The position numbers and the translations under genes were made by a program. A DNA stretch of 64,000 bases, from the NCBI GenBank assembly GCA_956465555.1, contig OY101124.1, positions 558,001 through 622,000 on the forward strand, given 5' to 3'. Source of the stretch: Nitzschia sp. pyKryTriq1 (lineage: Eukaryota; Bacillariophyta; Bacillariophyceae; Bacillariales; Bacillariaceae). The notes beneath the pieces were generated by a model that saw nothing but the letters and a program-made list of their open reading frames with translations, was not told the origin of the DNA and did no database searches. Shown one piece after another: positions 20,045 through 21,564 of the stretch. Position 1 is the stretch's first letter, and each line of letters opens with the position of its first letter.

Positions 20045-20260
20045 GCGTGAGAACACAACACCATTTTGATTTACAATAGAGGACGCGGAGAAGCGCCTCA
20101 TTCGTGACCCAGAGCAGATTGTATAGATTCTCAGAGAAATGTGAGAAACTTGAGAAATGTGAGAAACTTGACACAACGCCATTGGGATTTATGATAGAGG
20201 ACGCGGAGAAGAGCCTCATTCGTGACCCAGGGATTATATACATTCTCGGAGAAATGTCAT
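20045..20260. repeat. Tandem pair of the same ~110-bp repeat (copies 3-4)
   Basis: Copies begin near 20045 and 20158 with the same motif order as the pair at 19165-19385, about 0.8 kb away and in the same direction. Confidence 0.8.
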
Positions 20261-20764
20261 TCGACGAAGCGTACTCCTCGATTGAGAATTACAAGGGACA
20301 AACATGCATTCATCAAAGAGCGAGAAACTCAAATAAACAAGAAAGAAGACGACGATAAATGAGTCAGTCCTTCAACGGTTGAGTCTTACACCAACAGGAA
20401 GGGTGTTGCGATTTGTTGATATCAGACTCATAGGACTAACTGAAATGGACACGTCAGTCTATACATATCAAGAGGTCTAATATAGGAGAGCTCACCGAGA
20501 ATACTACATGAGAAAGGTTTGCGGGGAACTCATCTATACCACATCGGAATTTTGGCGCCCCTTGCCCGCCTGCGCGCTGTCGCTACTCCGACTGCTACGC
20601 TTCCGCCGCCGCCGACAAATGGCCTAAGGCCTTTTTCGGTCGTCCGTCCGTCGCTGCCCGTAGTGCAGCAGCCACCAGAATTAATATTTGTTCGACTCTC
20701 CCCCTTTTCCATCTTTCTCATTCACTTCATTTTCCGACGCAACACGACGACTCCTCTGTTCATC

Positions 20765-21007
20765 ATGCCGACATTCCCTCCCCTCGACGAGGAGGAGCTC
20801 AAAGCAGGCTTCCCACAAATCTGCATTGAAGATGGGAAGCCATTGGTTTATGTCTTCCCAAAGTCAGCCCTGCATTGTTGCACATCCGAGTTGAATTCGG
20901 CGGCGAACCAATATTTTTTGGCCTGGGACAGAATATGCGAAAAGTCGAATAATAGAATACAAGAAAAGGCGAAACAAAGATTATTCGACAACATGCATAC
21001 AACATGA
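20765..21007 (+). CDS. Small hypothetical ORF, rightward member of the convergent pair
   Basis: 80 residues starting MPTFPPLDEEELKAGFPQI, 32 bases after the left inverted arm. Its first ~55 residues have ordinary globular composition; the remainder runs antisense through the intron repeats of the opposite ORF and is probably not a conserved part. No domain recognised. It overlaps exon 2 and part of the intron of the minus-strand partner, so the two cannot both be under strong protein constraint in the overlap. It may be a truncated gene carried inside the inverted-repeat locus. Confidence 0.35.
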   Translation: MPTFPPLDEEELKAGFPQICIEDGKPLVYVFPKSALHCCTSELNSAANQYFLAWDRICEKSNNRIQEKAKQRLFDNMHTT

Positions 21008-21326
21008 CGGAAATTTTTGAAGTCCGAAGGGACGTACCTTGAGCAGAATATGCGAAAAGGCGAAGAATAGAATACAAGAAAATTCGAAAAAATGATTATT
21101 CGACAACATGTATACAACATGACGGAAATTTTCTAAGTCCGAAGGGACGTACCTTGAGCAGCTTGATACTGCGACCGGTCATGTCAGTGGGATCTGACAC
21201 CAGCAACTGCGCCAGATCAATGAGTTGTGATGTTCCATCCACAGCATCACTAACCTCTACATTGATGCCTGAGGCATCCCATTCGTTGTAGGAGGCAACT
21301 GTCGCCTCCAATGATTGCAAATCCAT
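20848..21326 (-). CDS. Small hypothetical two-exon gene, leftward member of the convergent pair
   Basis: Exon 1 is 21326-21153 (58 codons, starting MDLQSLEATVASYNEWD, ending IKLLK); intron 21152-20923 begins GTACGT and ends TCCCAG; exon 2 is 20922-20848 (24 codons plus stop). Phase is 0 at both sides, giving about 82 residues. The ATG sits 30 bases inside the right inverted arm, so its upstream DNA matches that of the opposing ORF. The 230-base intron is two tandem 115-base units. No domain recognised; the splice model is by eye. Confidence 0.35.
20931..21160. repeat. Two tandem 115-bp units forming an intron
   Basis: Units 20931-21045 and 21046-21160 are similar along their length (ATATGCG, GAATACAAG, ATTATTCGACAACATG, CATGACGG, GTCCGAAGGGACGTACC). 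On the minus strand each unit carries a GTACGT donor and ends in an AG acceptor, and the predicted intron is exactly two unit lengths. Confidence 0.85.
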
Positions 21327-21564
21327 GGTTGTTGGATGCAGAAGGGCAGTGTGTGAAATGAAGTGAATGAGAAAGATGGAAAAGGGGGAGAGTCGAACAA
21401 ATATTAATTCTGGTGGCTGCTGCACTACGGGCAGCGACGGACGCACGACCGAAAAAGGCCTTAGGCCATTTGTCGGCGGCGGCGGAAGCGTAGCAGTCGG
21501 AGTAGCGACGGCGCGCAGGCGGGCAAGGGGCGCCAAAATTCCGATGTGGTATAGATGAGTTCCC

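Follow-up and report, generated by a model that had tools for sequence, protein, structure and literature searches.

A Probable Nonautonomous Derivative of a Two-Gene MuDR-Like Transposon with Convergent Gene Starts in the Diatom Nitzschia sp. pyKryTriq1

A 64,000-nucleotide stretch of the Nitzschia sp. pyKryTriq1 genome (positions 558,001 to 622,000 of contig OY101124.1; referred to here as the window) contains two small open reading frames (ORFs) that face each other between long, nearly mirror-image arms. This raises the question of whether the locus is a pair of genes driven by duplicated promoters, a transposon that has captured pieces of host genes, or a remnant of something larger. An initial sequence-only reading left the first two of these standing side by side, and we have addressed them by searching the genome for copies, relatives, and parents of each component.

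ARCHITECTURE OF THE WINDOW ELEMENT

The arms are 99% complementary, although not identical, and are separated by a spacer of 623 nt. Long terminal inverted repeats are a feature of Mutator-like elements (MULEs), and those in the window extend for 209 bp. The sequence-only reading had described these near-mirror arms and had placed an ATG about 30 bases beyond each of them, and both observations are borne out: the plus-strand ATG at 20765 is 33 nt from its arm and the minus-strand ATG at 21326 is 29 nt from its arm, so that each lies about 240 nt inside the end of the element. The features are as follows, with presumed roles indicated.

20524..20732, plus strand: left arm (terminal inverted repeat), 209 nt, presumably supplying the promoter and 5' leader for gene B
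20529..20558, plus strand: left terminal 30-base motif, candidate transposase-binding end, containing a TTTGGCGC box at 20551-20558
20765..21007, plus strand: gene B remnant ORF, beginning MPTFPPLDEEEL, with similarity over its first 38 residues to gene B of the C3 element described below
20848..20922, minus strand: presumed gene A exon 2, beginning AKKYWFAAEFNSDVQQ, with its stop at 20848
20872..20873: presumed internal deletion junction, where the beginning of gene B meets exon 2 of gene A; the similarity to copy L011 ends at the identical base
20923..21152, minus strand: presumed gene A intron, GT...AG, 230 nt
21153..21326, minus strand: gene A exon 1, MDLQSLEATV...KLLK, 58 amino acids, transposase-like N terminus
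21356..21564, minus strand: right arm (terminal inverted repeat), presumably supplying the promoter and 5' leader for gene A
21530..21559, minus strand: right terminal 30-base motif, candidate transposase-binding end, containing a TTTGGCGC box at 21530-21537

The two ORFs do face each other, but the overlap that had been claimed for them is absent when they are read from their ATGs, with the plus-strand ORF spanning 20765-21007 and the minus-strand ORF 21096-21326. Overlap arises only if the minus-strand gene is spliced to the predicted exon 2, a model that is supported by its homologues (see below). The presumed intron is largely made up of a 115-bp unit present twice in tandem (20922-21036 and 21037-21151; 90% alike), and the presumed exon 2 is transposase-like only as far as about position 20873. 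We also note that just to the left of the element, at 20053-20257, there are direct repeats of about 60 nt and 26 nt (90% and 88% alike, respectively) with a spacing of 115 to 118 nt.

Pfam gives nothing near a cut-off for the two window ORFs, Rfam has no matches in the window, and a tblastn comparison of gene A with viral contigs finds no relatives; among solved structures, gene A has no matches and the best for gene B has an E value of 0.53.

COPIES OF THE ARM IN THE GENOME

Copies were sought in the genome to which the window belongs (20 contigs, 40.65 Mb), where eight silicon-transporter matches above the cut-off, a family typical of diatoms, agree with a diatom host. With the arm as the query there are at least 20 matches at at least 13 loci, and the terminal 30-mer has 18 matches, 17 of them exact and one with two mismatches, compared with none for a reversed control. 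The two-mismatch match adds a 14th locus, and a diverged arm used as the query points to a possible 15th (C15:1232390-1232460). Six of the 14 loci examined are two-armed, including the window and those at C1:3915110-3915882, C7:1641624-1642291, C7:402833-403480, C10:1145095-1146967, and C16:102919-103592, with arms ranging from 209 to 251 bp. Two strongly deleted copies have a short second end (20 bp in L013, and identified by eye in L027), and the remaining six are single arms, of which L017 and L021 are shortened. The family includes subfamilies A (the window, L010, L011, L012, and L017) and B (L013 to L016 and L018), which have the first ~139 bp in common and differ in their interiors. The inserts between the arms vary from copy to copy, and some copies have neither ORF.

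The TTTGGCGC box, E2F-like by sequence and noted in the arms from the outset, is present in 19 of 20 arms compared, roughly 28 bases from the terminus; this conservation is readily accounted for by descent, because copies of a single family inherit it, and cell-cycle control through the box is accordingly hypothetical. Genome searches with the arm, the 30-mer, or gene A turned up no copy of the window family that encodes a transposase catalytic domain.

Two of the two-armed copies have features of their own. The arms of L012 (C1:3915110-3915882) are perfect over 244 bp and are composed of arm bases 1 to 115 followed by interior sequence, and its interior retains a stump of an older arm, bases 151 to 209; one end seems to have been copied in inverse onto the other. 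Inside L016 (C10:1145095-1146967) lies an insertion of 1,201 bp that carries identical direct repeats of 346 bp and is flanked by a 5-base target duplication; by eye it appears to be copia-like.

A RELATED FAMILY WITH TWO FACING GENES

A profile search of the genome for the MULE domain (PF10551) identifies two places, one of which is above the cut-off. This is an element at C3:2335743-2339721, 3,979 bp long with 149-bp perfect inverted repeats, in which the domain scores 33.2 bits against a cut-off of 27.6 (29.6 bits in a second run, in which PF21056 passes as well), with a partial match covering profile positions 2 to 58 of 99. The element codes for a transposase and a small gene B that face each other, one starting just inside each repeat, with ATGs about 247 and 303 nt from the element ends. 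Gene B of this element has only subthreshold C2H2 zinc-finger matches. Protein searches extend this family, which we refer to as family M, to 12 loci, seven with both genes, three with the transposase part only, and two with the small gene only; a weak 18-residue gene B match on C16 (E = 0.028) is left out of this count. The genome search also gives a transposase match at C16:992534. At all seven loci with both genes the two are convergent.

The other PF10551 hit, at C4:2739946 with 25.5 bits, falls short of the cut-off; over the 18.9 kb read, its longest inverted repeats are 19 to 27 bases, and it was set aside. It sits within a 716-codon open frame (C4:2739061-2741209) that has no long inverted repeats in its vicinity and may encode a domesticated transposase.

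A more distant homologue of the C3 transposase is found by genome search at C2:3847738 (29% identity, E = 3.6e-22; score 70, shuffle maximum 52), and it provides a bridge to the window. The surrounding 3,001 bases (L063, C2:3846800-3849800) have no long inverted repeats, and the homologue itself has no Pfam match. The window minus-strand gene begins MDLQSL and the C2 homologue MDIQSL, and both have a phase 0 intron two residues before KYWF (K^AKKYWF in the window and D^VNKYWF in the homologue); the intron of the C3 transposase is one residue off (R^EQHKLWF). The gene A N terminus scores 88 locally against the C2 homologue, with none of 10000 shuffles reaching this value (maximum, 64), in a test that placed the C2 splice point seven residues before the better one. 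Directly against the C3 transposase, gene A has a local score of 57, reached by 1 of 5000 shuffles (maximum, 66), and a global score of 42, reached by none of 5000 (maximum, 27). The gene B N terminus compared with C3 gene B gives a local score of 53 (0 of 5000 shuffles; maximum, 49) and a global score of 45 (shuffle maximum, 19). The N-terminal stretches compared, 75 and 38 residues, were picked by eye after inspection. Homology of the encoded protein to a MULE transposase is supported over the N terminus only and is weaker in the direct comparison of the window with C3. In whole-genome searches the window proteins, at E values up to 1, reach only copies of their own family and not the C3 family, and C3 gene B as a query does not find the window. 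Between the two families the terminal repeats have only weak similarity, with 5, 3, and 287 of 2000 shuffles reaching the scores of three arms.

INSERTION FOOTPRINTS AND TERMINI

MULEs generally create target-site duplications of 8 to 11 bp, according to a survey of the superfamily (PMC6446971), and the window family does not have this feature. None of the eight two-ended copies has a convincing duplication; the longest direct repeats near their ends are 0, 3, 3, 4, 4, 4, 5, and 7 bases, and 1 of 56 mismatched-flank control pairs also reaches 7. Seven copies of family M are similar, with no convincing duplication and repeats of 2, 2, 3, 3, 3, 4, and 6 bases compared with up to 7 in the control; a 5-base repeat at the same offset is seen in the copy at C2:1863645, a length that 1 of 42 control pairs reaches as well. 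The comparison is able to detect duplications, because the 5 repeated bases flanking the 1,201-bp insertion within L016 are seen. However, the diatom group in the same survey is entered as "No TSD," and a missing duplication thus does not exclude membership of that group.

The outermost bases are unusual in a different way. Outside the CTCATC core, the two ends match in inverse over 5 to 8 bases in seven of the eight two-ended copies (1 base in L016), and these bases differ between copies. GGGAA is common to four of the eight and may simply be the family's end. The terminal variants do not follow the division into subfamilies A and B.

NATURE OF THE WINDOW ELEMENT

We consider it very likely that the window element is a nonautonomous derivative, arisen by internal deletion, of a MuDR-like diatom MULE with two convergent genes. 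The MuDR-type plan, in which there are convergent genes, one per terminal repeat, is evident in the window from its two gene starts, and the best reading of the ORFs is that they are transposon remnants rather than captured host genes. The earlier proposal of a nonautonomous DNA transposon with long terminal inverted repeats that may contain promoters is supported, with related arms at 14 loci and varied inserts as such a transposon predicts. Its further suggestion of captured gene pieces is not: the beginnings of both ORFs look like those of the gene pair in MULE-type elements elsewhere in this genome, and searches at E values up to 1 reveal no host parent.

Several other explanations deserve consideration. 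A Pack-MULE-like transposon carrying captured pieces of two host genes could present two coding-looking starts and an intron between its arms, with inserts that vary between copies, but every genome match to the ORFs (E up to 1) sits in a window-family copy, and both starts resemble MULE genes at an equal distance inside their repeats. We reject captured host genes, as these searches give neither ORF the parent that would define a Pack-MULE, and regard this origin as very improbable. It is also quite unlikely that the element belongs to another superfamily, or is a fold-back element with long inverted repeats, whose MULE likeness reflects chance or an old fusion. The absence of target-site duplications in all eight two-ended copies, the inverse copying of one end of L012 onto the other, and the modest direct similarity of gene A in the window and C3 are in keeping with such an element, but against it stand two independent gene starts, each correctly oriented and positioned, together with the shared intron and the score between gene A and the C2 homologue, which exceeds the shuffle maximum (88 and 64).

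The recurrence of the arms bears on the remaining two explanations. Inverted duplication of a single gene promoter, now driving two convergent genes, would account for the arms preceding two ATGs in the same relation, but it is contradicted by arms at 14 loci, some of which lack either ORF, and we see scarcely any prospect that this mirror-image promoter model is correct. An assembly fold-back artefact, which the sequence-only reading had named among the outcomes that would undo it, is suggested by the near-perfect palindrome of the arms; the probability of this is negligible, as the arms are 99% alike and not identical, the two inserts are different, and further loci with flanks of their own have the same architecture.

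PROPOSED MECHANISM

A full-length relative of the window element would carry facing genes, with transposase gene A expressed from the right arm and the small gene B from the left arm. A deletion would then have taken out the middle, leaving the terminal repeats, both gene starts, and the first intron. Each arm presumably acts as a promoter and 5' leader, and the arms may also provide binding sites for transposase acting in trans. In the parent, one arm would drive the transposase and the opposite arm a second protein, and the window copy would be mobile only with transposase supplied by another copy. With the middle deleted, overlap of the transcripts would be expected if both arms fire, and the overlapping transcripts could form double-stranded RNA; antisense transcription at the window element is possible.

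A more speculative proposal, and one that we think doubtful, is that this diatom MULE lineage inserts without target-site duplication and restores its ends by using one arm as the template for the other, perhaps through fold-back synthesis on a linear intermediate. If true, arm copying would account for perfect arms with copy-specific outermost bases, for the 244-bp inverse copy in L012 together with its inner stump of an older arm, and for the terminal variants common to both subfamilies. The repeated lack of target-site duplications raises the question of whether the insertion step of diatom MULEs differs from that of other MULEs.

RELATION TO KNOWN SYSTEMS

One close comparison is within the same genome. 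Like family M, the window element has two convergent genes just inside long repeats and no convincing target-site duplication; it differs in that the repeats are weakly alike in sequence and that family M retains part of the MULE domain. Among the elements in the MULE survey (PMC6446971), Mutyl of Yarrowia (MutA/MutB) also has its second ORF in antisense, but its entry gives 22-bp repeats and 9- to 10-bp duplications. The survey's MULE-Diatoms (group 37, Table 1) are listed with 123- to 124-bp repeats, one ORF, and "No TSD and not indicated." By description, these elements share with the window family a stramenopile host, long terminal repeats, and the lack of a TSD, whereas the arms described here are at least 209 bp and the C3 relatives have a pair of genes that face each other. 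The literature searched, which covers few subscription papers, did not yield any account of diatom MULEs with two convergent genes. The MuDR plan can now be placed in a diatom lineage, for which the survey table enters a single ORF.

The arrangement had been put forward as an undescribed one, but convergent genes with promoters in the terminal repeats are the plan of maize MuDR, which has ~215-bp terminal repeats containing transposase-binding sites according to the account in PMC3440606. The window element resembles MuDR as described there in having terminal repeats of similar length and two convergent gene starts. It differs from MuDR in that only the gene starts are kept, in having no convincing 8- to 11-bp target-site duplication, and in its host lineage. 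In maize, the same account attributes MuDR antisense transcripts to termination failure between the genes. Shortened copies with two promoters are obvious candidates for controlling the full-length element through antisense or small RNA, and Mu killer in maize offers a parallel.
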